Below are positions 7,068-22,433 of a stretch of DNA of 64,000 nucleotides, one piece after another. Origin of the DNA: Candidatus Nitrosopelagicus sp. (GTDB lineage: Archaea; Thermoproteota; Nitrososphaeria; Nitrososphaerales; Nitrosopumilaceae); NCBI GenBank assembly GCA_028344575.1, contig JAOMBO010000002.1, positions 62,001-126,000 on the forward strand. The letters are read 5' to 3'. Both the position numbers and the translations under genes were made by a program. Numbering within the stretch: the first letter of the stretch is position 1; every line of letters begins with the position of its first letter. The notes beneath the pieces are model-generated. The model searched no databases, was not told where the DNA came from, and saw nothing but the letters and a program-made list of their open reading frames with translations.

Positions 7068-7164
7068 AGTGATCGATCCTAGACTGCCATTACTATAAGA
7101 ATTGTATCTGAGTAACTAGGCACAACTAGGCAGTTTTTGTCTCAAACCTTCAATCTAACATAAA

Positions 7165-7210
7165 AGAACTATTATTTTTTGAGAAAAAGAAGAGACGAAA
7201 AAATAGTTCT
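7165..7210. promoter_or_regulatory. Inverted repeat AGAACTATT-N28-AATAGTTCT upstream of HTH gene
   Basis: Arms 7165-7173 and 7202-7210 are exact reverse complements; ATG follows at 7239. Confidence 0.45.
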
Positions 7211-7238
7211 CTTATACTTTTTTGTTCTACTGTATATC

Positions 7239-7649
7239 ATGAGTGAAGAGAAGAGAGGCGGACCATACACAAAACCGCAACAAGAAAAGCGTCGTAGACA
7301 AGTGCATGAGATGTACTTTGAGAAGGGACGTTCTGCTGTGAGTATTGCAAGAGAGTTGGGCGTGAATAGAAATACTGTAAATGAAGATGTTAGATTTTGG
7401 TGTGCAGAGATTGCATCTGAATACAAAAAAGAAAGACTTTCAGAGATGGCTTCTGGGCAATTTGAAAGATTTGAGTTACAAAGAGAGAGGTTGATGTGTT
7501 TGCTAGAGTCTGCTGGAAATGATGAGAAGCTTCGCATAGAGAAGCTTATGTTTGATATGGACTACAAGATGTTTTCATTGGTTACAAAGTATACAGGTGG
7601 ATTTAGAAACTTTGAGAAGCTGATGTTTGATGATAGAATTCAGTTTTAG
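7239..7649 (+). CDS. Helix-turn-helix protein
   Basis: Likely start MSEEKRGG at 7239; SAVSIARELGVNRNTVNEDVRFW HTH. Confidence 0.75.
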   Translation: MSEEKRGGPYTKPQQEKRRRQVHEMYFEKGRSAVSIARELGVNRNTVNEDVRFWCAEIASEYKKERLSEMASGQFERFELQRERLMCLLESAGNDEKLRIEKLMFDMDYKMFSLVTKYTGGFRNFEKLMFDDRIQF

Positions 7650-7717
7650 AATATTCGAAGTAGAGGGTTGAATGTAAAAATCACTATAAGCTAGTAGCGC
7701 CTCAATATACTGATATT

Positions 7718-9043
7718 TTGAATAGAAAAGAAATACCTGGAGATGATCCAGAAGATGATCCAGAAAAAGAAAATTTTGAATGGTATTTTTCTGAAAAATT
7801 TCCTACAAACAAATGGGATAAACTAGAAAAACTGTATGACGAGTATAATGAACTTATTGAACAAAATAAATCTAATGAAGAGATTTTAGAAAAATTAACA
7901 GAGATTATAAAAATTAGTCCAAACGAAACAGGTACTTGGCGTAGGATGGGGAGTTATTTATGGAGATTAGGTAGAAGTGAAGAGGCGTTGGAAGCTTTTG
8001 ATAGAGCAATTCAGCTAAAGGGAGGAAATGTGCTTGCATGGCATTACAAAGGACTAGTATTGTTATATGATTTTGAGAAATTTGGAGAATCACTAGAGTG
8101 TTTTGAAAAGGTGATGAAATATGATGAAAAACATGTTGATGCACGATATTATACTGCAGTTGCATTGGCTGGATTGAAAAGAAAAGATGAAGCGATTGAA
8201 TGTTGTGATGAAATGATGGAACTTGCAGGAAATACTTCAGAAGCATGGGCTCGTAAAGCAGACTTGTTACAAAATATGAATAGAAAGAAAAAGGCAATCG
8301 AATGTTATGATGAGGCAATCAAACTTGATAGAGAAAATATCAATTTATGGAGATTAAAATATGAAATATTATCTGAACTAAAAAACTTTCAAAAAACAAT
8401 AGAGTGTATAGATGAAATTTTAGCGCTTGATCCAGATGATGCAGATATCCAGTATAGCAAAGGCTGTTTGTTAATTCAATTACAAAGAGATGAAGAGGCA
8501 GTTGAGTGCTTGATGAAATGTAAAGATGGTTTATCCAGATTTGCCAATGGTATGACAGCGGGAGCAGATTACGCGCGTCGTCAAAGAAATTTTGGTGCAG
8601 CAATAAAAATTTGTGATAGAGCATTAAAGTTTGATAAAGAAAATGCAGTTGCATTACTCATCAAAACAATGTCACTAGTAGACGAATGGAGTGAAATTGC
8701 AACAGCGGCAATAGAAGCAGGATTAAAACATGATTTTGTGCGTAAACATGAAGCAATAAAGTACTGTCAGAAAATAATCAAATCAGATCTAAAAAGTACT
8801 AATGCTTTTCATCATATTAGTACCAGATTATTCATATCAGAACAATATGAGATAGCAATTGAATTTTGTGATAAAATTTTGCAAATTCAATCTTATGAAA
8901 ATGACGTTAGAGCATTAGGAGTAAAGGCGTTTTGTCTTAAAGAGTTGAACAAAAAAGAACAATCAGATGCTATGATGAAATTAATTCCTGGCAATACACC
9001 TCTAGATTTGATTTGGGAGAGAGCGGAATTTGCCAGATATTGA
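7718..9043 (+). CDS. Large TPR repeat protein
   Basis: Multiple TPR units (GRSEEALEAFDRAIQLKGGN, KKKAIECYDEAIKLDRENI, ...). TTG start. Confidence 0.85.
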   Translation: MNRKEIPGDDPEDDPEKENFEWYFSEKFPTNKWDKLEKLYDEYNELIEQNKSNEEILEKLTEIIKISPNETGTWRRMGSYLWRLGRSEEALEAFDRAIQLKGGNVLAWHYKGLVLLYDFEKFGESLECFEKVMKYDEKHVDARYYTAVALAGLKRKDEAIECCDEMMELAGNTSEAWARKADLLQNMNRKKKAIECYDEAIKLDRENINLWRLKYEILSELKNFQKTIECIDEILALDPDDADIQYSKGCLLIQLQRDEEAVECLMKCKDGLSRFANGMTAGADYARRQRNFGAAIKICDRALKFDKENAVALLIKTMSLVDEWSEIATAAIEAGLKHDFVRKHEAIKYCQKIIKSDLKSTNAFHHISTRLFISEQYEIAIEFCDKILQIQSYENDVRALGVKAFCLKELNKKEQSDAMMKLIPGNTPLDLIWERAEFARY

Positions 9044-9062
9044 GCATAGCATGTCAAAATTT

Positions 9063-9311
9063 CTATTTTTTTCTAATACAGTCTAACAGAAACTCACCAA
9101 ATTTTTGAAAACCATTTTTGTAAAGCCATCTACTGTCTATGTCTTCGATATGACCTTTTTTCTGATATTCTTTCATTAAATGAAATACTTGTTGTCCTTT
9201 CATTGTTAACACCCATTTTCCTGGGGTAGATTTTATGTAACCAAGATGAAATAATGACGCTTCTAATAGCTTGGCTTCTGTTTCAGTGATGTCTGGTCTA
9301 GGTTTTATCAT
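9063..9311 (-). CDS. 82-aa protein, possible winged helix; distal gene of island operon
   Basis: ORF start overlaps stop of 9298..9438. Confidence 0.55.
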   Translation of the reverse strand: MIKPRPDITETEAKLLEASLFHLGYIKSTPGKWVLTMKGQQVFHLMKEYQKKGHIEDIDSRWLYKNGFQKFGEFLLDCIRKK

Positions 9312-9438
9312 TTTTAATCACCTCATTTTTACAATTAGGACACAAGACTGGTCCAAGACTATTACTTTCGATAGTTCCATGACATTTTGCACATGATAAT
9401 TCACCTTTTGAAATTTGTTCAGTTTTATGCATATGCAT
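9298..9438 (-). CDS. 46-aa zinc-ribbon protein
   Basis: Read by hand: MHMHKTEQISKGELSCAKCHGTIESNSLGPVLCPNCKNEVIKNDKT; CxxC...CxxC; overlaps both neighbours. Confidence 0.6.
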   Translation of the reverse strand: MHMHKTEQISKGELSCAKCHGTIESNSLGPVLCPNCKNEVIKNDKT

Positions 9439-9847
9439 GTCCTCCTAGTCTTCTACATTTGTCAAGATATTCTATCAAAGATTCATCTAATTCTTCAGTA
9501 TCAATGGTTAGATCTCCACCAAATGCATATGGTCTGATTTGGCCACGATTGTTTTTTTCAATTAATTGTAATCTACCAAATTTTCCTTTAGTTAATTGTA
9601 ATTTTCCATCATATTCATTCATGTAACCATTTTCAATCAAAATTTTATCATGATTCTCTATTGTTTTAGCATCATTTTCCCATAATGTAATTATGATTTC
9701 ATCAGAATCATCAACTAGAATTGCATGTGAAACATCAACAGTTTTGCCAAATTTTGTTTGAACAGTTCTAATGTTTCCTTTACGTTCAATTGTTCCAAGA
9801 ACACTAATTCCTTGTCTCATGTTTTTTGCTTCAGCAATACTTGACAT
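9425..9847 (-). CDS. OB-fold ssDNA-binding protein (RPA/SSB-like)
   Basis: Start MSSIAEAKNMRQGISVLGTIERKGNIRTVQTKFGKTVDVSHAILVDDSDEIIITLWE is RPA-like OB fold. Confidence 0.75.
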   Translation of the reverse strand: MSSIAEAKNMRQGISVLGTIERKGNIRTVQTKFGKTVDVSHAILVDDSDEIIITLWENDAKTIENHDKILIENGYMNEYDGKLQLTKGKFGRLQLIEKNNRGQIRPYAFGGDLTIDTEELDESLIEYLDKCRRLGGHAYA

Positions 9848-9848
9848 T

Positions 9849-10127
9849 TTACAACTCCAACCCAAAGGTTTCAGCAAAATCACTAAACCTTCTATATTCT
9901 TCTAGTAATAATCGGCCTTTTTCAGTAATGACAAAGATGTTTTTCTTATCATATTCAATTATGTTGATTAATCCTGAACCTGAAAGATTTTGGACCAGTT
10001 TTTGTAATCTTGTATGAGATAGATTTGATTTTCTAATTAGTTGTGTAATTGATAATCCATCCATGCCAGCATAACTCATGTTATCAAGAACATCAGTCAT
10101 GATTTGAAGGGAATTTCTGTATGTCAT
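9849..10127 (-). CDS. Winged-helix DNA-binding protein
   Basis: ISITQLIRKSNLSHTRLQKLVQNLSGSGLINIIEYDKKNIFVITEKGRLLLEEYRR-type wHTH. Confidence 0.8.
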   Translation of the reverse strand: MTYRNSLQIMTDVLDNMSYAGMDGLSITQLIRKSNLSHTRLQKLVQNLSGSGLINIIEYDKKNIFVITEKGRLLLEEYRRFSDFAETFGLEL

Positions 10128-10128
10128 T

Positions 10129-10485
10129 TTATGCCATTGCTCCTATTGCTTTTTTTTGATTGTAAAATTTCAAAGAATCACCTTTTTCATATTGAATTAG
10201 AGATGTGATTGGATTTTCTGGGTCATGAATTTTTTGATGACATTTACAGTGCACATATGCTATAACTTGAGGAAAATACGATACGTGATGTTTGAGTAGT
10301 GGTTGCAAAATTTGCGTCTCTTCATTTTTTTCCATACCATTACCACAGACTATACATTTCTCACAATTATTTAGAAATGAAATGTTTTGATTTGTTAGTC
10401 TTTCATGATTCTCATGTAGAGATTCACTTAGTACGTTATTGAAAATTTCACTTCCTGTGTTGTCTTTGAAAGAAATAAGGCTCAT
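10129..10485 (-). CDS. HNH-like zinc protein (possible nuclease)
   Basis: CIVCG ... LLKHHVSYFPQVIAYVHCKCHQKIHDPENP resembles HNH/Zn-finger core. Confidence 0.6.
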   Translation of the reverse strand: MSLISFKDNTGSEIFNNVLSESLHENHERLTNQNISFLNNCEKCIVCGNGMEKNEETQILQPLLKHHVSYFPQVIAYVHCKCHQKIHDPENPITSLIQYEKGDSLKFYNQKKAIGAMA

Positions 10486-12494
10486 TTTATGACTCCTTTT
10501 TTTCTTAAATCTGCCAAAAAATCAGCATAATCAGATTTTATTTCGTCATCTTTCATAGTTACATGTTCAGGATTTAATTCAAATGGTCTTATGTGATCAC
10601 CTAATGCAGTACGCATTCGTCGTTCTTTTTCTTCTAATCTACCATCTACCCAATCATCAATATGACAAGGTAAAGCTTTATTTCCATTTTCAGATGCATA
10701 TGCTGAACGGAAAATATGATATGTTACTTTTGTATCAGATTTCATTCCTATACGATGAATTCTATCTTTTGATTGAATATATTGAGCAGCATTAAAAGTT
10801 CGATCAAAGTATATTGCGTGCTTACAAACTGTATCTCCAAGATTATTGATATGAAGTGATACAGATTCAGAACATGATGGAGGAGTTGCAATTAGGATTT
10901 TTCGATTAGGATTATTTTTGAATTCTCTAATATTTTTTTCTCTGTTATTTTCAATATCATCATCATCATCTTTAGGAATTTGACCAGTGATTGTAACTAC
11001 CTCACTCTGATCAAAATTATATTTCAGTAGTTGATTTTCTATCATCTTTATGTTGTGAAGAAATGATGTGAAGATGACTACTTTTTCATCAGATTTGGTA
11101 AGATCTATTGCAGTTTTACAAACCTCCATGAGTTTGTTTGGAATATGGCCTTGTTTTGCATAATTTTTGATTAACTCGGATGTTTCTTCATCAATTAATG
11201 TTCTTGTTAGTATGTCATTAACTTCCTGATCTAAATTAAACTCATTATCTTCTTTTGTTAATAATGCAGGATTTGATGCAGCTTGGAGCATACGAATAAT
11301 TTTTCCTCCTTTGTCTCCTCGATAACGTGACATTCTAGAATGTTCAGATACAGTTTCACGTTGCAATTCTTCTATCGCATGAGATTCAATTGATTTGTAA
11401 ATTCTATTTTGTAGAGGATCCATAGCAACATCAATAACTTTAGCAGGATTTGGATCTGGAAGATTCAATTGTTCTTTAGAAATACGTGTAGATAATCCAT
11501 CAACTATTTGTTGGAATTTTCCAAGATCATCATGATCTTTTGTATATCTACTAAAATGAGAAAAACTGCCAAAAATATTTGCGTTAGGCCATAGAAAATC
11601 AAATTGTGACCAAAGATCTTCAAATGCCTGAGGACAAGGTGTTCCACTCAATATCATTCTTCTTTTAGCATATGGTGCCAAATCTCGAGCATTTTTAGAA
11701 TATGCAGTTGCATTTGTTTTTCGTCCATTTTTGATATTATGTGATTCATCAAGAATCAATAGAGATTTTTTCTTTTGTAAAAGTTCTACAAATGCATCGA
11801 TGTGTTTTGCCATCATAGCGTACGAGCTAAGAAAAAGATCAACATCTTCATGATTATTTCCTAGATTTTCTCCTCGTAATCGAAGAGTGTTTGGAATAAC
11901 ACCAAAACATTTCTCATATTCATCCTCCCAAGATGCAAAGGCAGCACGTGGACATATTACAATAATTGTTTCAACTTCTTTTTTTTGTTCCATTAATGAA
12001 TAAATTGCAAGCGAAATTGTAGTCTTGCCAGAACCAGGTACAGAAAAATTTGCTCCATTTCCAACTGCATAAAGTTGTGCTACAGAAGGTTTTTGATATG
12101 GCATTAATTTTCTTCTAAATTTAGATGGTAATTCAATTTCAAAAGATTGATCATTTCTTTGATTTCTTATTTCTAAACCAGCATGAATTGCTGATTCAAC
12201 CGTTTGAGATGTAGATTCCACATTTTCAAGTAGATTTTTGGTTTGATTATCGAATGAAACATCAATTTTATCTCTCTTACAAAGTCTACTTAATGAGAAT
12301 AAAATTTTGTGAAGTGAATAAACAGATTTTTTCCAATTTATTGAATGTGTATTATTGATAGGATTGTATTCGGAATTTAAAATTTTAAGTAAACTACCTA
12401 ATGCGGGATAGTTATCTGGAGAATCTTTATCCAAGATTACAAGTAATTCTTGATCAGTTTTTGATATATTAATCATCAGAATCCGTATCCTCAT
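10482..12494 (-). CDS. SNF2-family DEAD/DEAH-like helicase/ATPase
   Basis: VPGSGKTT, LLILDESHNIKN, LSGTPCPQ, VVIFTSFL, KDRIHRIGMKSDTKVTYHIF. Confidence 0.92.
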   Translation of the reverse strand: MRIRILMINISKTDQELLVILDKDSPDNYPALGSLLKILNSEYNPINNTHSINWKKSVYSLHKILFSLSRLCKRDKIDVSFDNQTKNLLENVESTSQTVESAIHAGLEIRNQRNDQSFEIELPSKFRRKLMPYQKPSVAQLYAVGNGANFSVPGSGKTTISLAIYSLMEQKKEVETIIVICPRAAFASWEDEYEKCFGVIPNTLRLRGENLGNNHEDVDLFLSSYAMMAKHIDAFVELLQKKKSLLILDESHNIKNGRKTNATAYSKNARDLAPYAKRRMILSGTPCPQAFEDLWSQFDFLWPNANIFGSFSHFSRYTKDHDDLGKFQQIVDGLSTRISKEQLNLPDPNPAKVIDVAMDPLQNRIYKSIESHAIEELQRETVSEHSRMSRYRGDKGGKIIRMLQAASNPALLTKEDNEFNLDQEVNDILTRTLIDEETSELIKNYAKQGHIPNKLMEVCKTAIDLTKSDEKVVIFTSFLHNIKMIENQLLKYNFDQSEVVTITGQIPKDDDDDIENNREKNIREFKNNPNRKILIATPPSCSESVSLHINNLGDTVCKHAIYFDRTFNAAQYIQSKDRIHRIGMKSDTKVTYHIFRSAYASENGNKALPCHIDDWVDGRLEEKERRMRTALGDHIRPFELNPEHVTMKDDEIKSDYADFLADLRKKGVIK

Positions 12495-13725
12495 CTTGAT
12501 GTTTATTCCAAAATTCTTCTAGAAGTTTTGATGTAGATAATATATCACCTATTGATTTTAGATTTTTTGGTTTTTGTAGTAAATCATCTGCTTCATTCTT
12601 TTCTAGAATTTCCTTTAGTTTTTCAAAACTGAATTTTATTGAATTGATCAGTTTTTCTGGTTTTTGTGAAATTTCGATTACATTTTGTTGATATACTGCT
12701 CTATCCCAATGTTCCCAGATAGAATCAACATCAAATTCTTCGCCTGTTTCTTCATTAATTTTAGCTCCATCCAATAGTGATTCAGCAATTCTTTTTTCAG
12801 CAAGCATAGCTGGAATTTTTCTAATGTCTTTGTGATGGAATTTTTTATGAAACATTAGCTTGAAAATTAATCGTTTTGCCTCCATTACATCTAATGGATC
12901 AATGTCAGCTAGAGCATTTTCACTTAGAATGTAGGTATGTAAATCTACAAAATATGCATATTTCCCATCTAGTCGTTTGAATTCGCCCTCCCATCCGTTT
13001 TGTTCAAGACATTCTTCCATGTATCCATAATAGATTACTTGATGATCAACATGGTCTGTCTCTAGATCCATTTTTTTTGCAATATGATCGTGAGATAATC
13101 CACGTTTTTTGCCTTGCATAATTTTTAGAATTTCATTATTTGGCGTATAGTCTAATTTGTCTTCTTTTTCCATTTGACATTCAACTTCAATATCAAAAAG
13201 CTCAGTAGAATCAATTTCAGATCCATCAATTTCTTTAGGTAATCGTACTACACGAATAAATCCATATTTCTCAGGATCTTGTTTTGCTAGTTCATGTAAT
13301 ATTGCTAAGCGTCTATTAGCATTGACAAGTGTTCCATCGTGTGATATTATTCCTGGTTGCTCTTGGCCATTATTTTGTATTTTTCTGAGAACTCTAGCAA
13401 AACTTTTTGGATCTACGTTCCTCAACATTTCTCTAATTAATTTTGCATCAGTATCTAATGTAGAATCAAGATCCCAGTCTTCTGGATTTCTATCTGGATC
13501 CATTGTCTTTTTTAATTCCAAGTAATCATCTAAGTATCGTCCATTAGATACGTTATGATATACTAGATTGATTGGAAGTTTGATTGTAGAATATTGTTTT
13601 CTCTCACCTCTTAACGTTACAAGAAAACTTTTAGCACATACATCATCGTCATCTAATTTTACTTTATCAGGATTAGTTTCAATCCACTCATCAATTGTTT
13701 GTGCTAAGATTTCTTGGTATGTCAT
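12469..13725 (-). CDS. ParB/sulfiredoxin-like domain protein
   Basis: IKLPINLVYHN ... QPGIISHDGTLVNANRRLAILHELAK. Confidence 0.65.
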   Translation of the reverse strand: MTYQEILAQTIDEWIETNPDKVKLDDDDVCAKSFLVTLRGERKQYSTIKLPINLVYHNVSNGRYLDDYLELKKTMDPDRNPEDWDLDSTLDTDAKLIREMLRNVDPKSFARVLRKIQNNGQEQPGIISHDGTLVNANRRLAILHELAKQDPEKYGFIRVVRLPKEIDGSEIDSTELFDIEVECQMEKEDKLDYTPNNEILKIMQGKKRGLSHDHIAKKMDLETDHVDHQVIYYGYMEECLEQNGWEGEFKRLDGKYAYFVDLHTYILSENALADIDPLDVMEAKRLIFKLMFHKKFHHKDIRKIPAMLAEKRIAESLLDGAKINEETGEEFDVDSIWEHWDRAVYQQNVIEISQKPEKLINSIKFSFEKLKEILEKNEADDLLQKPKNLKSIGDILSTSKLLEEFWNKHQDEDTDSDD

Positions 13726-14249
13726 TGACTCTCACCTATAGTATTTTTAGTATTTGAAGACTCGGTGTTTCTTTTTGTACAAAGTGGTCTTAGTTGTCTT
13801 GTTTCAACAGTAATTGGTTTTGGAATATCTATATCTTTGACAACATAATTTACATTTTTATTTTCAATTATACTTCGAAGTTTGTTTTCTTTTGTTGTAA
13901 TGCCTGCTCCTTTTTTCTTAAACTCTAAGAAATCCATTCTATCATCTTTAATTCCAATCATATCAAGAGATGGAGCTCGTGATGTAGTAGATAATGTAAT
14001 TAGTTCATCATATTCAGTGAGCATTTTAAATTCACCAAGTATTTGATGAATGTTTCCAAGTTCAGAGTTACCACCAAGTTGATAAGCCCTACTTTGTTTT
14101 TTCAATAATGCATTTTCTGCATTAATTAATGCCAAATGCAATTCTGCTACTGATTTTTTATTTTTGTATAGTGTGATTGCTAAAACTGTAACAGATGCTA
14201 CAAGAACTAGCAAAATCATGAATATTTCAGAAGAAATTCCAGCGATCAT
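13722..14249 (-). CDS. N-terminally TM-anchored endonuclease related to archaeal Holliday junction resolvase
   Basis: TM helix EIFMILLVLVASVTVLAITLY; NIHQILGEFKML...APSLDMIGIKDDRMDFLEFKKKGAGITTKENKLRSIIENKNVNYVV matches the D...ExK pattern of that family. Confidence 0.7.
   Translation of the reverse strand: MIAGISSEIFMILLVLVASVTVLAITLYKNKKSVAELHLALINAENALLKKQSRAYQLGGNSELGNIHQILGEFKMLTEYDELITLSTTSRAPSLDMIGIKDDRMDFLEFKKKGAGITTKENKLRSIIENKNVNYVVKDIDIPKPITVETRQLRPLCTKRNTESSNTKNTIGESQ
13726..13770 (-). promoter_or_regulatory. Island promoter copy 4 (internal): AAACACCGAG-TCTTCAAATACTAAAAATAC-TATAGGTGAGAG-TCA-ATG
   Basis: Shares 20-bp block AAACACCGAGTCTT(T/C)AAATA with copy 1 at one mismatch; lies within the end of the TM-nuclease gene, just before the ParB-like ATG. 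Confidence 0.65.
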
Positions 14250-15241
14250 GCCGAATTCCTCTCTAAAATTGTATCAATCATTGCGGAATTGGTTCTGACC
14301 GTTAGGTCTGATACTCCAAATGCGGCTGCAACTTTTCTTTGAGCTCCAACTGGTTTAATCCTCAATTCTTTCATGGATGTAAAGACAAGTGCGGCTGCAA
14401 TTCCTAGTGGATTTTTTCCTTCGAAAAATGAGTTTCCTTCAAGTTTTTGAAAAATCTCTCTAGCTTTACCATATACATGATTTATGGAATATTCACTAAC
14501 TTTACTTTCTCTTAAGATTGGGCCAGTAAGGCATTCTATCGGGTTTATAGGCATATGTTTTGAGATTATAGCCTTGCCAAATTCAGATTCAGTTCTTAAT
14601 TTTGAGTAAAGAGAGGAAATTGATTTTTCCATCTCTTTTGGGTTTACTGAATTCTCAGTCTTTGCAAGATATTTAGCTATTTCTCCAAATGTTACAGGAG
14701 TATGATGAATTTTTAATGCTTCGTACAGACATGCTCCTAATAATATTTTAGTTCTGAGATGTTTTTTGTTTTTGATAGCATTTAGTGATAGACGCTTTAT
14801 GTCCTCTATAACTGGTCGAGTAACATTACGGATTTTTTCAATTTCCACACCTGTTTCTGGATCTATTGTAACAAACAAATCCTGTTGTAGTAAACGATCA
14901 ATTTTGTCATACTGTTCAGCAATTCGTCTTTGTTCTCCTGTTCCTGTTTCTAAACCTCGAATTTTGGTAACAGTTAATGGTTTTGTTGTTTGACCTAAGA
15001 AATCTTTCTGTACTCTATTTGGGCTTGTTACACTAACAGATCTTGAAGAAATTCCAGGTATATCGTCTCGTGCAATACGTAATTCATTTACTGTTTCTTC
15101 AATTTGGACTTGTACACCACAATTATTACAAATGTAATTAGTTTCTACAAGATCTGGATCTTTTATCTGCCAATCTCCTTCATATTCCTGAATTAATTTT
15201 CCACCACATTCAGAACATGTTGTTTGTGAATTATTGGCCAT
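14246..15241 (-). CDS. tfb: Transcription initiation factor B (TFB)
   Basis: N-terminal Zn ribbon CSECGGKL...YICNNCG; DDIPGISSRSVSV B-finger-like region; two cyclin-like repeats. Confidence 0.9.
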   Translation of the reverse strand: MANNSQTTCSECGGKLIQEYEGDWQIKDPDLVETNYICNNCGVQVQIEETVNELRIARDDIPGISSRSVSVTSPNRVQKDFLGQTTKPLTVTKIRGLETGTGEQRRIAEQYDKIDRLLQQDLFVTIDPETGVEIEKIRNVTRPVIEDIKRLSLNAIKNKKHLRTKILLGACLYEALKIHHTPVTFGEIAKYLAKTENSVNPKEMEKSISSLYSKLRTESEFGKAIISKHMPINPIECLTGPILRESKVSEYSINHVYGKAREIFQKLEGNSFFEGKNPLGIAAALVFTSMKELRIKPVGAQRKVAAAFGVSDLTVRTNSAMIDTILERNSA

Positions 15242-15716
15242 TTTCTACTCCTGATAATTTTATGATGTATTTTTCAGCACGATAAATCCATGATGGAATT
15301 ATTCCTTGTCTCATTACTTTATCTGAAATTTCGAAAATTTTTCTTTCTGAGACTTTTATCTCAAAAAGTTCTAGAATATTTCTGATTAATGTTGCAGATA
15401 ATTGATGTTTTTGATGTAATTGGTAAATAGCATTGTTAGATGCGACAGTGCCACGTCGATATTTCTTTTTTGTAATAATTATGGTATCAAAATTGTCTAG
15501 AATGTCTGCCAACTCTTTAGTTGGCAAACCTTTGAAATCATTAGCCGGCTTAGCCGAAAAATGTTTTCTTGCGTAGTTGACAGAGTAACCTGATTTCACT
15601 AATGCCTCAAAAAAAGCGTGGAGGGTTTTGTCAAATTTTGGTTCATCTATTGCGTTTCGACCATTTCCGGCTTCAACGATTTCGATGTTTCTGGTGTGTG
15701 TATGTGTTCTAGACAT
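15231..15716 (-). CDS. Uncharacterised 161-aa protein, first gene of the island operon
   Basis: Start immediately follows the shared promoter motif; no family recognised. Confidence 0.65.
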   Translation of the reverse strand: MSRTHTHTRNIEIVEAGNGRNAIDEPKFDKTLHAFFEALVKSGYSVNYARKHFSAKPANDFKGLPTKELADILDNFDTIIITKKKYRRGTVASNNAIYQLHQKHQLSATLIRNILELFEIKVSERKIFEISDKVMRQGIIPSWIYRAEKYIIKLSGVENGQ

Positions 15717-15758
15717 CTCTATTCTATAGCATTTTATCTATTTAAAGACTCGGTGTTT
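15717..15758 (-). promoter_or_regulatory. Island promoter copy 1: AAACACCGAG-TCTTTAAATAGATAAAATGC-TATAGAATAGAG-ATG
   Basis: Same CCGA-N20-TATAGAATAGAG layout as at 18019-18057 and 18072-18108; TATA-like TTTAAATA. Confidence 0.75.
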
Positions 15759-15903
15759 TTTTGATATAACTATGCATTTTATAGGAATAAAAGCTATATT
15801 TCACGTTTTTTATCACAGCGATCTAAAATTAAGGGTTACATTTGAATAAAAAGGACTTATTTTAGGTATAATTTATTAACTTCAAATGTTTATAGTAGTT
15901 ATA

Positions 15904-17394
15904 ATGAGTAAACGTTCTGCTGATTCGAAACTAAGCACTGACACATACAGAGATTTGGTAGGTAGTTTTGAGGATTCAGACCCAAATGATGAGAATTATC
16001 GTATTCCACCAAACCTGTTTGCTAAAATCAAAGGTATTGTTAATGACCCAAGAGTACCAAGATATCGAAATATCGATGAATTCCTGAATGAATCAATCGA
16101 TTTGTTCACTACATGGTGGATTAGCCCACAACTAGTGCAAGGGATGATGGCTAATCTTTGGGAAGATTTGACGCCAGAAATGAAATCTGAAATTAAGAAA
16201 ACCGCTCCAACTTACTTTAAACAAATGGAGCAAATGATGGCTGCAAAAAATCAGATTATGGACATGCCAGTTGATGATGAAAATCTAGGTTCATTGAGTG
16301 AAAATATTGCTCATGCAACTAAAATGGATCCTAAGGTAGAAGGATTTGCACATAAAGCACTCAGAATAGATGCATCACAAATCTTAGATGAATATCCAAT
16401 GGTGAAAAGTAAATCCACAAATATTCTATCTGCTAGTTTTAAGAAGAATACAATTTTACCATATGATGGTTATCCACTTATCTGGAGTTTTTACACCAGA
16501 ATTTTTCCAGCTAAAATTGCTCTTGTTGCTTTAGGAGATATTCTAAATAGACAACATGAAAGTTTAGATGAAGCAGGTTTTGTTGATTTTAAACACTTCC
16601 AGAATGAAGCATATAATTTAGCATATAAAATATCGGAAGATTTTCGTAAATTTGAAATACATAACCAAGTACCAAGAAATAAAAGATTTTCTACAGGCCT
16701 ACCAGTTCCATTACCAGAATATGAAATTCAAGATCCTGAAATTGCATATATGGAAAGAAAGAAAGTAGAGTCTAGTAGAAGAAGATATACAAATCAATTT
16801 CTAGGAAGACTTGGAAATGATGGATATGTAAGCGGTATCCTTAATGCAACAGGTCTTGCACATTTTATTGGTGATAAAAAGAATCTTAAACTGGGATTTA
16901 GTAAGGAAGGATTAGAATTTTATAAATTAGAAAATAATGTTTTAGATAACTATTCAGAAGTTGTTGAAACAAAGTATGATTCTATATTATCATTTAATGA
17001 ACAAGAGTTTCTCATAACAAAAATAATTCCAAAATTTACACTTGAAAGTTTGATTGTAAATGGAATTTGTGATAAATTAAAAGAGAGAAAAGAAATTAAG
17101 GCAGATGTTATTGATATTGAGATTGATGAATCATTATCAAAATGGATTAAAACCGAGCGTAAAACAGCATCAGCTTTCAAATTAGATTCAAAGATTAATC
17201 GAGAAAGACTCATACTTTCTACTAGAATTGGTACTATGGGAAGACTAACTGAATTAGGAATTGTAGAATGGAAAATGGAAAAAGATGGGTCTTCAACATA
17301 TACCAGTGGAAAGGACTTTAATCCTCTTTACCGTTCATTTCAAAAAAGCTGCAAAAAAACACTTGAGCCAAATATGATTAAACTGCTAAACTAG
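15904..17394 (+). CDS. Uncharacterised ~496-aa protein with RHH-like N-terminus and possible C-terminal wHTH
   Basis: Start MSKRSADSKLST at 15904 in the 15886 ORF; YRIPPNLFAKIKGIVNDPRVPRYRNIDEFLNESIDLFTTWW is RHH-like. Confidence 0.7.
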   Translation: MSKRSADSKLSTDTYRDLVGSFEDSDPNDENYRIPPNLFAKIKGIVNDPRVPRYRNIDEFLNESIDLFTTWWISPQLVQGMMANLWEDLTPEMKSEIKKTAPTYFKQMEQMMAAKNQIMDMPVDDENLGSLSENIAHATKMDPKVEGFAHKALRIDASQILDEYPMVKSKSTNILSASFKKNTILPYDGYPLIWSFYTRIFPAKIALVALGDILNRQHESLDEAGFVDFKHFQNEAYNLAYKISEDFRKFEIHNQVPRNKRFSTGLPVPLPEYEIQDPEIAYMERKKVESSRRRYTNQFLGRLGNDGYVSGILNATGLAHFIGDKKNLKLGFSKEGLEFYKLENNVLDNYSEVVETKYDSILSFNEQEFLITKIIPKFTLESLIVNGICDKLKERKEIKADVIDIEIDESLSKWIKTERKTASAFKLDSKINRERLILSTRIGTMGRLTELGIVEWKMEKDGSSTYTSGKDFNPLYRSFQKSCKKTLEPNMIKLLN

Positions 17395-17447
17395 GCACAA
17401 ATTTGGTTGTTTTTGCTGTAATTTAGAGAAAAATACTATCTTCAATA

Positions 17448-17813
17448 TCAAAGGTTTCTAAGCCAATTTTGGTATGTGTATTTCATTAATTTATCCAAAT
17501 CAGGATCTTCTTCTATCATATGTTTATACAAAATAGCGAGATTGTATCCTAGATCAAGCAAACATTCTTCTTTGTATTCATGTGGTAGTTCCAAAACTCG
17601 ATCTATTGCCCATCTTGCTTGAGCAGGTTTGTTAAACAAACTAGAATAGAAAAGTTTTGTAGCAAGAACAGAAGCCTTTTGGCCCAACAAGTAAGTTTGC
17701 TCAAAGCAATGTTCTGTAAAGTGAGTGGTATCTTCAGAACTATATTTCATTAATTCGTCAACAAGCCATCCTTCATAATCTGCTAAATCTTCATTTTTAT
17801 TTTGTCTCATCAT
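17448..17813 (-). CDS. Uncharacterised protein
   Basis: Likely start MMRQNKNEDLADYEGW; start overlaps stop of 17797..18021. Confidence 0.6.
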   Translation of the reverse strand: MMRQNKNEDLADYEGWLVDELMKYSSEDTTHFTEHCFEQTYLLGQKASVLATKLFYSSLFNKPAQARWAIDRVLELPHEYKEECLLDLGYNLAILYKHMIEEDPDLDKLMKYTYQNWLRNL

Positions 17814-18021
17814 TACCTCCAAGAAGTTGGTTGTACATGTGTGACCATCTATATGCTTCTGCTTTAGAATCATCATCTAATCTATCAAACAATGCATGTT
17901 GAGCTTGACCGATCCTTGCTTCCTCTATAGATTGAATTTCTACAAATTGTTCTTCTTTTTTTTCTAAATCTTTTTGAATTTGTGCTCGTTTGTTACATTT
18001 TGATTTAATTTCTTTTTTCAC
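17797..18021 (-). CDS. Uncharacterised coiled-coil protein, GTG start
   Basis: GTG lies directly in the shared promoter motif (TATAGAATAGAGTG). Confidence 0.6.
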   Translation of the reverse strand: MKKEIKSKCNKRAQIQKDLEKKEEQFVEIQSIEEARIGQAQHALFDRLDDDSKAEAYRWSHMYNQLLGGNDETK

Positions 18022-18057
18022 TCTATTCTATACAAAAATTAATTTTTAAATTATCGG
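18019..18057 (-). promoter_or_regulatory. Island promoter copy 2: CCGAT-AATTTAAAAATTAATTTTTG-TATAGAATAGAG
   Basis: Divergent with copy 3; the TATAGAATAGAG arms (18021-18032 and 18097-18108) form a perfect 12-bp inverted repeat. Confidence 0.75.
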
Positions 18058-18071
18058 CAAATCTAAAATCA

Positions 18072-18108
18072 CCGATCGTTTTTAAGTTAAAAATTCTATA
18101 GAATAGAG
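18072..18108 (+). promoter_or_regulatory. Island promoter copy 3: CCGAT-CGTTTTTAAGTTAAAAATTC-TATAGAATAGAG
   Basis: Same motif and N20 spacing, upstream of ATG 18116. Confidence 0.75.
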
Positions 18109-18115
18109 AAAGGAA

Positions 18116-18616
18116 ATGTTAAAGAGTGAAGTACAAATGTTTAAAGGATTACCAGCAAGATTTGGTTGTTCAACAGAAAGAAATCCAAATCGTGCTTTTG
18201 AGAAATTTGTAACTAGATTAGTAACAGAAACACTTTCTCTTTCAGGATATGAAGTGTTATCACAGTTTTCAAAAAAGTCATGGGTTGGAAATAATGGAGA
18301 TTCAAGAGAAATAAGACCAGATATCATAGTAAAATCAGGAAGAGATGTAATTGCAATCATTGATGCAAAATGTAAAGAACAACTTTCATCGGGGGATATG
18401 GCTGAAATTGCATTGTACGCAAAAGAATTCAATGTAAAAAAAGCAGTGGCAGTTTTACCTACATATCCAGGAAGAGAAGGGATAAGATGGAACTCAATAG
18501 ACACAGATACAACAATTTTTGAAAAAAGAATAGATATTGAACAGGTTATTGTTGATTTGAAGAATGGGTATACAGGAGATATTTCTAGAATGATCCACAT
18601 ATGGGCAGGAGTATAA
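18116..18616 (+). CDS. PD-(D/E)XK nuclease, McrC C-terminal-like
   Basis: IRPDIIVKSGRDVIAIIDAKCKEQLSSGDMAEIALYAKEFNVKKAVAVLPT. Confidence 0.75.
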   Translation: MLKSEVQMFKGLPARFGCSTERNPNRAFEKFVTRLVTETLSLSGYEVLSQFSKKSWVGNNGDSREIRPDIIVKSGRDVIAIIDAKCKEQLSSGDMAEIALYAKEFNVKKAVAVLPTYPGREGIRWNSIDTDTTIFEKRIDIEQVIVDLKNGYTGDISRMIHIWAGV

Positions 18617-19452
18617 TGAATATTCTTGAAGCAATATTGAATCTATCAAGATGTGAGGATTTCAGTTTAACAAATACTAAAGAAAATGTCAACAATATTG
18701 TTTCTGATGAAGGAAAGCCCTTAGAGAAATTTGTAAGAGCATCGTTTTGTGGAAGACCTGATTCAGAGGAATCAGAAAATGTATCAGAAGACGTTTTTTG
18801 TTATGAAGGAGGTGTAAATAATCCACCTGATGCAATGATTAGAAATCAAGGTGATGCAATTGAGATCAAAAAGATTGAAAGTAAGATGGGCGGTATTCAG
18901 CTAAACAGTTCATTACCAAAACAGAAACTTTTCTCATCTGATAAAACGATTACAAACAATGCAAAAACTTGTGAGAATTGGGAATCACGAGACATGTTGT
19001 ATGTTGTCGGATATGTATCAAACAATAACATATGTTATCTATTTTTTGTGTACGGAGATTGTATTTTTAGAGAGAATCAGTTCTACGAAGATAAATTTAA
19101 CGCAATAAAAAAAGCGCTTGGTTCACTTGATATAGAAGAATTAGATCAAACAGGAAACGAATACGGTACTTTAAAAAATGTAGATGGATTAAATATTAAC
19201 ACAAACATGAGATTAAGACCTCTGAATAGTTTTGATAATCCATTGAAAATATTTTCAGATATTGTAAAGTTGGAAAATGAGGATAATTTTTCAATGTTTA
19301 CAATAATGAGAGATGCAAAATATGAGACATTTATGCCTGAAATTAGACGTGAAATAGAAGATTCTGATGTTGATGTTAGAGATTCAACAATTAATGATCC
19401 TGATAATCAAGAACAAAAGGTGAAGATCAAAATTCTTTCATTTAAAAATTAA
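18616..19452 (+). CDS. NgoPII-family type II restriction endonuclease
   Basis: MNILEAILNLSRCEDF start; NPPDAMIRNQGDAIEIKKIESKMGGIQLNSSLPKQKLFSSDKTIT is characteristic of the family. Confidence 0.82.
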   Translation: MNILEAILNLSRCEDFSLTNTKENVNNIVSDEGKPLEKFVRASFCGRPDSEESENVSEDVFCYEGGVNNPPDAMIRNQGDAIEIKKIESKMGGIQLNSSLPKQKLFSSDKTITNNAKTCENWESRDMLYVVGYVSNNNICYLFFVYGDCIFRENQFYEDKFNAIKKALGSLDIEELDQTGNEYGTLKNVDGLNINTNMRLRPLNSFDNPLKIFSDIVKLENEDNFSMFTIMRDAKYETFMPEIRREIEDSDVDVRDSTINDPDNQEQKVKIKILSFKN

Positions 19453-19453
19453 A

Positions 19454-20839
19454 ATGACTAGTGTTACATTTTATGGTGGAGTAAATGAGGTAGGAGGAAA
19501 TAAAATTCTTCTAGAAGACAAAGATACCAAAGTTTTACTTGATTTTGGAATGTCTTTTGGAAGACGTGGAGATTATTTTGATGAATTTATGAGTCCTAGA
19601 ACACCTACTGGCTTGAAAGATTTTTTGGAAATGGGATTAATTCCAAATATAAAAAATGCATACAGAACTGATTTACTAAAAATGATGGATAGAACCGATA
19701 TTGAAACGGACATAGATGCAGTATTACTTACACATGCACATGCAGATCATGCTGATTACATTTCATTTCTAAATGAAAATATTCCTCTTTACATGGGAGA
19801 TACATGCAAACTATTACTTGAAGCAATAGAAGGTAGAACCGCTAGAGATTTTGAGCGTGAAATTTTATCATTCAAACCACGTCCATTAGTAAGAAGTGAT
19901 GAGGAAATTCAGAGAGATGTTCGAACATTTCGTACAGGTGATAAATTTAAGATTGGTTCGCTAGAAGTGGAACCAATTCATGTGGATCATTCAGTCCCAG
20001 GTGCATATGGTTTTATCATTTACACATCATCAGGCCCTGTTGTTTATACTGGAGATATTAGATTACACGGAACTAAACCTGAAATGACTCAAGATTTTGT
20101 AAAAAAGGCAATAGAAGTAAAACCAATTGCACTACTAGCCGAAGGAACTAGAATTAATGATTTAGAGAGTGACGAATCAGAGCAAAAAGTGTACAATGAT
20201 TGTAACAGTCATGTTGAAAAATCTGATAAACTAGCAATTGCAGATTTTAACTTCAAAGATATGGATAGATTTCGAACATTTTATAATATTGCAAAAGAAA
20301 ATGGTCGTAAACTTGTAATCAACATTAATGACACATTATTTTTAGAAAAATTATCTCAAGATCCGCAGCTAAATTTACCAAAACCAGATGATGAAAATAT
20401 TCTCATATACAAACCAAAAAAAACAATTTGGAAAACATTTGAAAAGCAATATCTTGAAAATACTAATGCATTAACAGCCGAGGAATTAGTTGAAAAACAA
20501 GAAAAATTGCTTTGTGCATTTTCATTTTGGGATTTTGGTGCCATGATAGATATGAAACCAAAATCAGGTGGATTATACCTACATTCAGCAAGTGAGCCGT
20601 TTAATGAAGAAGGAAAATTGGATTACAAAAGAGTGGATTTGTGGCTAAATCATTTTGGTTTAAATCGAATTCAGAGTCATTGTTCTGGACATTCAAAAGG
20701 AAAGGATTTGCTGGAAATTGTAAAATCAATTGATTCAGACATGTTGTTTCCAATACATACAGAAAATCCAGATTCTTACAAAAAAATTACAGATAAAATT
20801 ACCATAGTTCAAGAAAGCAAAAAGTATGAGATAGGATAA
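19454..20839 (+). CDS. MBL-fold metallohydrolase, RNase J-like
   Basis: GGVNEVGGNKILLED, LLTHAHADHADYISFL, VDHSVPGAYGFII, VVYTGDIRLHG, CSGHSKGKDLLE. Confidence 0.82.
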   Translation: MTSVTFYGGVNEVGGNKILLEDKDTKVLLDFGMSFGRRGDYFDEFMSPRTPTGLKDFLEMGLIPNIKNAYRTDLLKMMDRTDIETDIDAVLLTHAHADHADYISFLNENIPLYMGDTCKLLLEAIEGRTARDFEREILSFKPRPLVRSDEEIQRDVRTFRTGDKFKIGSLEVEPIHVDHSVPGAYGFIIYTSSGPVVYTGDIRLHGTKPEMTQDFVKKAIEVKPIALLAEGTRINDLESDESEQKVYNDCNSHVEKSDKLAIADFNFKDMDRFRTFYNIAKENGRKLVININDTLFLEKLSQDPQLNLPKPDDENILIYKPKKTIWKTFEKQYLENTNALTAEELVEKQEKLLCAFSFWDFGAMIDMKPKSGGLYLHSASEPFNEEGKLDYKRVDLWLNHFGLNRIQSHCSGHSKGKDLLEIVKSIDSDMLFPIHTENPDSYKKITDKITIVQESKKYEIG

Positions 20840-20853
20840 CTATATCCTAAGAA

Positions 20854-21192
20854 TTAGTATTTTGAATCTTCTTTAAAATCATCTAAGAATCTCTTTTTCC
20901 ATCTTTCTCTTTCTAATTTTGAAAGATCATCTTTGAATTCTTCATTGATGCTCTCTTTGATCCTTCCATCTGCATCACCGGAACAACATGATTCACATAT
21001 CCACTCTGGAACTACCTGATATGATGGTAATTTTGTGGGATTACAAATAATTTGTTTGTCGATATCCACTCCACAGTACTTACATTGATGTTGCACATCC
21101 GAATCCGTAAAACATTCGTCACAATGATCTCCTTCTAAGATTTCATAGGGAACTTCTCCATCACAGTTTGGGCAATGGTAACAATCATCCAT
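20854..21192 (-). CDS. Cys-rich zinc-ribbon protein co-oriented with MTase
   Basis: CPNCDG..CDECF..CKYCG..CESCC. Confidence 0.65.
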   Translation of the reverse strand: MDDCYHCPNCDGEVPYEILEGDHCDECFTDSDVQHQCKYCGVDIDKQIICNPTKLPSYQVVPEWICESCCSGDADGRIKESINEEFKDDLSKLERERWKKRFLDDFKEDSKY

Positions 21193-21194
21193 AA

Positions 21195-22364
21195 TTATGA
21201 ATTAGTATTTCGAATCTTTTTCTCTGATTCAATTTTTTTGTAATCAAATGCGTGCGCTCTGACAACTTCAATTAATTCATCAACTGAATCGTATGATTGT
21301 AATTTTGTTTTCTTTGCTTCTTTGTAAGACCTTAAAATTGCATTTCCAATTGCTTTTCCAAGAAGTGGTGGAACCGCATTACCAATTTGCCTCCATTGTT
21401 GAGAAACTGACCCTTCAAAAATGAAATCATTAGGGAAGCTTTGAATGGATGCAGCCTCTCTTGCGGTGAGATATCGAGGTTCTGTTGGATGATAGTATGT
21501 GTGTCTACCAGTCATTATAGTTGGAGAAAGACTGTTTCTGTCTAAGCGATTAAGTTTCTTTTCACGAAATCTAGATTCTTCAATTGTATCCCAATCAACA
21601 TCAAATCGAAGTTTTGGTGGCAAATATTCAAGTTCATCTTTTTCATATCTAACACTTTTACCTTCAGGAATTTTCATTATTCGTTTCTTTTCAAGTTCAT
21701 TTTTAATTTGAGCAGCCTCAATGTCATGATTATGTTCTACATCATCAAATCGCATATCTGAAAATGCATCATTGACCGTTCTTGATTTTTTCACGTGTGT
21801 TGGTTCTGGGAAAAAATTTTCTATTCCAAGTCTATTACCGATAAAAATTGATCTTCGTCTTCTTTGCGCTACACCATAATGATCAGCTGACAAAACACGT
21901 ACTGACATGTTGTAACCTAATTTTGCAAATTGAGTGATTATTCCTGCTGAAATATTGATATTTTTTTTACTTAGTATACCGGTGACGTTTTCTAAAATAA
22001 CAAAATCAGGCTTGATGTTTTTTACTGCACGTACAAATTCTAGAAATAAGAAATTTCGTGGATCATCTGGAATTCCCTCTCCAACTGTTGACAAGCCTTG
22101 ACATGGAGGACCTCCACAAACAATGTGTACTTTTTGAGATTTTGAAAGTTTTTTGAATTTTTCATTTGAAACATCAGAGATATCTCCAAGATATGGTTCT
22201 GCATGAGGATGATTACGCTCAAATGTTGACATTGCTGCTTTGTCATTATCAGTTCCCATTACACACTGTAATCCTGCCATCTCTAATCCACAAGATAATC
22301 CGCCTGCTCCAGAAAATAGATCTACAAAATTTAATTGATTTTTTGTAATATTCAATCTAATCAT
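21195..22364 (-). CDS. DNA (cytosine-5) methyltransferase
   Basis: DLFSGAGGLSCGLEMAG, GGPPCQGLS, LENVTGI, QRRRRSIFIG, RYLTAREAASIQSFPNDFIFEG, QIGNAVPP. Confidence 0.95.
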   Translation of the reverse strand: MIRLNITKNQLNFVDLFSGAGGLSCGLEMAGLQCVMGTDNDKAAMSTFERNHPHAEPYLGDISDVSNEKFKKLSKSQKVHIVCGGPPCQGLSTVGEGIPDDPRNFLFLEFVRAVKNIKPDFVILENVTGILSKKNINISAGIITQFAKLGYNMSVRVLSADHYGVAQRRRRSIFIGNRLGIENFFPEPTHVKKSRTVNDAFSDMRFDDVEHNHDIEAAQIKNELEKKRIMKIPEGKSVRYEKDELEYLPPKLRFDVDWDTIEESRFREKKLNRLDRNSLSPTIMTGRHTYYHPTEPRYLTAREAASIQSFPNDFIFEGSVSQQWRQIGNAVPPLLGKAIGNAILRSYKEAKKTKLQSYDSVDELIEVVRAHAFDYKKIESEKKIRNTNS

Positions 22365-22433
22365 TATGAATTTGTTAGATTACTAATTAAGAATGTTCAA
22401 TGAGTTTTAGCTCACTAAAACAAAAGAGGAATT

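Follow-up and report, generated by a model that had tools for sequence, protein, structure and literature searches.

The DNA analysed here, called the window below, is a stretch of 64,000 nucleotides from Candidatus Nitrosopelagicus sp. Up to base 7103 it can be aligned with other genomes of the genus (89% to genome G491), and so it can again from base 22433 (97% to G488 and G469); between these conserved flanks the cargo differs in each genome. Bases 7103-22433, an island of about 15 kb, are a hypervariable integration hot spot. No tRNA was found at the island borders, the tRNAs of the window lying only at 54-55 kb, and the ORFs scanned, a part of those of the island, included no conjugation genes (VirB4/VirD4-like) and no integrase.

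The genes discussed are collected in Table 1 together with four copies of a promoter-like motif, M1-M4. On the reverse strand the genes for p161, a TFB, p175, a ParB-like protein, an SNF2 helicase, p118 and a winged-helix protein follow each other as one tightly overlapping operon behind M1. The relatives of the ParB-like protein adjoin an SNF2 gene in other islands too. This ParB-like/SNF2 pair (10482-13725 in the window) recurs in islands of the family (L023-L029), where a conserved protein of ~330 aa, not found in the operon of the window, usually comes next; the pair is probably an undescribed defence system. No relatives of the ParB-like protein, p496 or p120 were found in viral contigs.

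Table 1. Genes of the island and the motif sites M1-M4, with positions in the window.
Feature	Position	Strand	Remarks
Winged-helix protein	9849..10127	-	92 aa; end of the M1 operon; PF14947 1.7e-13
p118	10129..10485	-	HNH-like by eye; continues the M1 operon
SNF2 helicase	10482..12494	-	670 aa; PF00176 7e-23; PADLOC ZorD/DrmD-like
ParB-like protein	12469..13725	-	418 aa; ParB/Srx-like motif by eye; no Pfam match
p175	13722..14249	-	Membrane-anchored (by eye); 4-nt overlaps with the TFB and ParB genes
Island TFB	14246..15241	-	331 aa; proposed reader of M1-M4
p161	15231..15716	-	First gene of the M1 operon; distant relatives in 3/400 genomes, none with the motif
p496	15904..17394	+	ORF of 502 aa from the upstream ATG 15886; divergent from M1
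p120	17448..17810	-	Follows p74 behind M2; 53-57% identity to homologs from other islands at this site
p74	17797..18021	-	First gene behind M2; homolog in L081
McrBC/Mrr-like nuclease domain protein	18116..18616	+	166 aa; first gene behind M3; PF10117 1.5e-4, just under cut-off
NgoPII-family type II restriction endonuclease	18616..19452	+	PF09521 5.5e-62; PADLOC 7e-65
Beta-CASP/RNase J-like metallo-hydrolase	19454..20839	+	2 nt after the endonuclease gene; M3 operon
C5-cytosine methyltransferase, HaeIII-like	21195..22364	-	PF00145 1e-71; M.HaeIII 2.8e-40, nearest solved relative
M1	15717..15753	-	CCGAG-N20-TATAGAATAGAG; putative promoter of the p161-TFB-p175-ParB-SNF2 operon; ATG directly adjoins, predicted leaderless
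M2	18021..18057	-	CCGAT-N20-TATAGAATAGAG; putative promoter of the p74-p120 pair; GTG begins on base 12 of the 12-mer
M3	18072..18108	+	CCGAT-N20-TATAGAATAGAG; putative promoter of the Mrr-like/NgoPII endonuclease operon; ATG 7 nt downstream
M4	13729..13765	-	CCGAG-N20-TATAGGTGAGAG; lies in p175 at its 3' end; the ParB-like ATG is 3 nt further on

The initial annotation had described four CCGAK-N20 sites in front of gene starts, and they are indeed there: all lie within 4.4 kb, each just ahead of a gene start, each is 37 nt long, and the distance from CCGAK to TATAG is exactly 20 nt in every one of them. The 12-mer which ends the site is identical in M1-M3 only (TATAGAATAGAG) and M4 has the variant TATAGGTGAGAG; the 17 element bases of M1-M3 are the same except at K. 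M2 and M3 are divergent and 14 bp apart. The gap from the 12-mer to the start codon is 0, -1, 7 and 3 nt for M1 to M4; thus the layout given earlier for M2 holds for the site itself and not for its start codon, the GTG of which shares the last base of the 12-mer and is not strictly downstream. Gaps of this size support the earlier prediction of leaderless or near-leaderless messengers. Since the distance between CCGAK and the 12-mer is fixed and that to the start codon is variable, the element would act in transcription and not in translation. Except for M1 and M4, which are 80% identical over 46 nt, including sequence beyond the motif, pairs of sites agree at 9-11 of the 20 spacer bases; the sites are therefore not simple copies, and it is the elements which are conserved and not the whole promoter.

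The A/T-rich stretch which had been noted after CCGA is an octamer in the same register, motif bases 8-15, in all four sites. In M1 the octamer (TTTAAATA) lies at -30..-23, the register of the bulk promoters of the genome, and the 12-mer spans -12..-1, i.e., the promoter-proximal or initiator region. The seven bases ahead of the octamer, which start with CCGAK, occupy the BRE position, as proposed before. With the predicted starts the sites would thus have what an archaeal core promoter has, a TATA box centred about 26 nt upstream of the start with an adjoining BRE. Neither CCGAK nor the 12-mer is palindromic. M4 is a possible internal promoter, which would give an extra start for the ParB-like and SNF2 genes.

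The ordinary promoters of this genome look different. An EM search on 209 upstream regions of the host resulted in a poorly defined motif, and position-wise counts (230 upstream regions) were used instead. From these a single strong signal emerged, TTTATA/TTAAAT, located at -30..-25 relative to the start codon, which implies that many messengers are leaderless; there was no CCGA signal and nothing at -12..-1. CCGAK is present in 6 and TATAG in 28 of 209 upstream regions, and none has both at the spacing of the motif. The window was excluded from an automated comparison of promoter pairs, in which antisense ORF calls masked the island sites. Two genes on the island serve as contrast cases: the motif was not found upstream of the methyltransferase gene, and CCGAK was not found in the p496 promoter. 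In a 404-kb sample of the same genome GATC is strongly under-represented (0.59 of the second-order expectation) and GGCC mildly so (0.81).

How rare the composite motif is was asked at several scales. Without mismatch, CCGAK-N20-TATAG occurs four times in the whole genome of 856,542 bases as available (the assembly is 66% complete), each time in the island, and the reversed pattern occurs twice. The 12-mer alone is unremarkable in such AT-rich DNA, with 11 matches at two mismatches in the window vs 9.4 expected. A weight matrix built from the four sites gives these 40-50 bits and the next best place in the 404-kb sample 10 bits; a matrix from any three of the sites finds the fourth above every other position of that sample. 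With at most one mismatch, 200 genomes of the family hold one further match, which looks like chance, and a stricter form of the motif had no match in 85,462 species genomes, a collection from which the window's own record was possibly excluded. The exact motif has two matches in viral contigs; these are isolated singles in unrelated-looking sequence, and as true sites they were rejected as chance. The motif is thus not frequent elsewhere in the genome or in related genomes, in line with the earlier claim that it is specific to the island. Of the regulon which the initial annotation had postulated, the link between the helicase/ParB operon and the restriction-nuclease operon stands; the gene at 15904 and the methyltransferase operon lack the motif, and the putative regulon would comprise a part of the island.

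The best candidate for a reader of M1-M4 is, we infer, the island TFB. Judged from its sequence it is a very divergent member of the archaeal TFB/TFIIB family, found by the NCBIfam TFIIB model (4e-7), by an HMM of the TFBs of the genus (8e-10) and by hhalign over residues 140-322 (96%); the Pfam score of 22.5 bits is just under the cut-off of 23.6. Its first ~45 residues hold the Zn ribbon pairs CSEC...CNNC, which the alignment shows with a longer spacer than in host TFBs, and two cyclin repeats follow with a BRE-type helix, GVSDLTVRTN. That this helix is only moderately changed from the canonical one is a point against the island TFB as a specific reader. The genome has three other TFBs, and the B-reader motif HDMGLST which aligns in all three is missing from the island TFB. 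It may therefore be a deviant member which does not necessarily act as a canonical TFB; TFB paralogues need not do so, as exemplified by Sulfolobus TFB3 (PMC7289017). In TFBs the BRE is recognised by the second cyclin repeat, and B-reader and linker work close to the active site (PMC7289017); judged from their position, the two private elements would sit where the deviant parts of this TFB meet the DNA. The single-sequence AlphaFold models of the TFB and of p161 had a mean pLDDT of 39 and were excluded from fold searches.

No match to the island TFB at 1e-10 was found in 400 genomes of the phylum, and close relatives were found neither in viral contigs nor in 85,462 species genomes, plasmids and phages, so co-variation of motif and TFB is not demonstrable in these collections. 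In the nearest related island, L025, there are counterparts of p496, p118, the winged-helix protein, ParB, SNF2, the endonuclease and the methyltransferase, all by homology; no TFB, no p161 and no motif were found in it. The genes for endonuclease and methyltransferase run in tandem there, and in the window the former has a motif promoter and the latter a promoter without the motif. Restriction and modification are thus divided between promoter classes where the TFB is present and not where it is absent. Since p161 is absent from L025 as well, the missing motif there does not single out the TFB. For p161 (161 aa) and the protein of the gene at 15904 as dedicated readers we found no support.

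Our model postulates that M1-M4 are island-specific core promoters read by a self-activating, divergent island TFB, which drives the genes behind M1-M4 while the methyltransferase stands apart; we consider this fairly probable. CCGAK would fill the BRE, the AT octamer would be the TATA box and TATAGAATAGAG would cover about -12 to -1. Together with the TBP and RNA polymerase of the host, the TFB would recognise CCGAK by its second cyclin repeat, and its non-canonical reader/linker would need the 12-mer. As M1 would drive the TFB gene itself, the TFB would activate its own synthesis in addition to that of ParB-like/SNF2 (M1, M4), p74-p120 (M2) and the NgoPII-type endonuclease (M3). From its ordinary promoter the methyltransferase could be transcribed by host TFBs at once after entry, and methylation can then precede restriction. 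The TFB operon would start slowly and feed back on M1, and when the TFB is abundant M3, M2 and M4 would be turned on. The wider proposal, an orthogonal and self-contained transcription system with a divergent TFB, a bipartite BRE plus initiator code confined to its own element, self-activation and an establishment timer for restriction, is made tentatively; we consider it less likely than not, though far from remote.

The reader hypothesis draws on four sites, of which M4 falls within a coding region, and other explanations have to be weighed. The host TFBs and TBP might use the sites as ordinary promoters, the shared sequences being operators of a separate DNA-binding protein of the island (p161, the winged-helix protein or another) which represses or activates. 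A 12-mer over the start site is in the classical position for a repressor, the M1 operon encodes both a winged-helix protein and p161, and p161 is, like the TFB, missing from the motif-free island L025. The 92-aa winged-helix protein is thus an alternative as reader or repressor, as is p161 as reader. We find this explanation unlikely, though worth serious attention. CCGAK and the 12-mer are non-palindromic and held in a fixed register to the TATA box, which is what TBP/TFB geometry predicts; moreover, a homolog of the winged-helix protein (57% identical) is present in L025 without the motif, and there are genomes with relatives of p161 and without the motif.

Common descent could also account for the likeness of the sites, if one promoter had been duplicated recently across the island with no dedicated reader involved. 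M1 and M4, alike beyond the motif, would fit this, and a near-identical duplicated promoter of 58 nt is seen in another genome (L080). The other pairs, with about half of their spacer bases in common and elements which in M1-M3 differ at K alone, show that the elements stay constant and the spacer is at liberty to vary, and the explanation is therefore improbable. We give still less credit to the idea that the 12-mer acts in the RNA, at the translation start or in a leader, and not in transcription: it is at most 7 nt from all four start codons, but its distance to them varies while that to CCGAK does not, and a transcription start at or just after the 12-mer would put the 12-mer outside the messenger.

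Other TFB-like genes and other paired elements were seen in the genus and family. Divergent TFB-like genes lie at L079:9220-9843 (-), L080:9443-10048 (-) and L081:10117-10899 (+), two of the three in islands at the same hot spot. The proteins of 207 and 201 aa are without Zn ribbon and B-reader and that of 260 aa is without B-reader; possibly they inhibit canonical TFBs or serve these as co-factors. In L080 (G442:C38) the gene for the 201-aa protein (10048 (-)) and that for a probably secreted protein of 680 aa (3594 (-)) have an upstream stretch of ~58 nt in common. It is nearly identical in the two, takes in the start codon and has no other occurrence in 31 genomes of the genus. The islands at the same site in L079 (G488:C12; ~10.8 and 13.2 kb) and L081 (G469:C7; ~11.7 and 14.4 kb) carry another repeated promoter element, the palindrome AGTATGCATACT-N13-ATAATAGG. 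It was rejected as a promoter of the same type as its downstream half is at the TATA position (about -28), which makes it look like an upstream operator instead. When two mismatches are allowed, 33 of 201 family genomes contain it, and the control gave zero matches among the genomes listed; it looks like a widespread operator of some regulator. Paired TAAGCT / AGCTTA sites, ~20 nt apart, lie upstream of genes in other genomes of the family (L147, L150, L153) and are possibly the operator of another host regulator.

Parts of the arrangement have been described in other systems. Most thaumarchaeal integrative-conjugative elements have a TFIIB/TFB gene upstream of a ParB gene, probably in one operon (Krupovic et al., 2019, PMC6563490), and the island resembles them in that its TFB gene, too, belongs to a mobile element and precedes a ParB-like gene. 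Those elements are conjugative with a partition-type ParB, and no promoter code is described for them, the word "promoter" being absent from the paper; in the island, in contrast, the ParB-like protein is without a Pfam match and has an SNF2 helicase as its partner in a defence island, and a private promoter can be seen. In a comparison with the TFB-ParB pair of the conjugative elements, ParB matches in the family mostly had no TFB nearby. Several TFBs per genome have been proposed to give promoter specificity in haloarchaea and ammonia-oxidising archaea (PMC7289017), and mesophilic ammonia-oxidising archaea have 4-11 TFB copies (PMC7554672). Such expanded TFB/TBP sets act on chromosomal regulons, whereas the island TFB is apparently confined to its own island; it is also far more divergent and has a unique initiator-region element. 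In Sulfolobus a promoter-proximal/initiator element is found at about -11..-4 upstream of the start (PMC8131849); there the elements are degenerate A/T-rich preferences genome-wide, here an exact 12-mer is confined to one island.

The bacterial C (controller) proteins of type II restriction-modification systems activate their own synthesis, and with the endonuclease under the regulator's promoter and the methyltransferase apart, restriction is delayed in a new host (PMC3874152; PMC3695507). The island has this layout: M1 stands before the TFB operon, so that the candidate regulator would be under its own motif promoter, M3 stands before the Mrr-NgoPII operon, and the methyltransferase is without motif. 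C proteins are small helix-turn-helix proteins which bind operators, whereas the candidate regulator here is a 331-aa TFB outside the C-protein family. By analogy the island would work like a C-protein timer without being a member of that class, and would delay restriction. Element-borne TFBs are thus already known; what appears to be new is that a bipartite promoter private to the island is coupled to restriction-modification.

It is an old suspicion that archaea with large TFB sets use them in the manner of alternative sigma factors, but clear-cut cases in which a single TFB goes with a single promoter class are, to our knowledge, scarce. The findings suggest that the island carries its own divergent TFB and its own promoter code, lock and key for its genes. 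The candidate pair, a deviant TFB and three promoters with identical elements, is boxed in 15 kb, and natural negative controls are at hand in the methyltransferase and p496 promoters beside the motif sites and in the related islands. If the model is true, it would show a way in which a new host could survive the arrival of a mobile island with an archaeal restriction system, it would provide archaeal genetics with an orthogonal promoter/TFB pair, and the island TFB would unite, in an archaeon, the roles of a sigma factor borne by an element and of a C protein.
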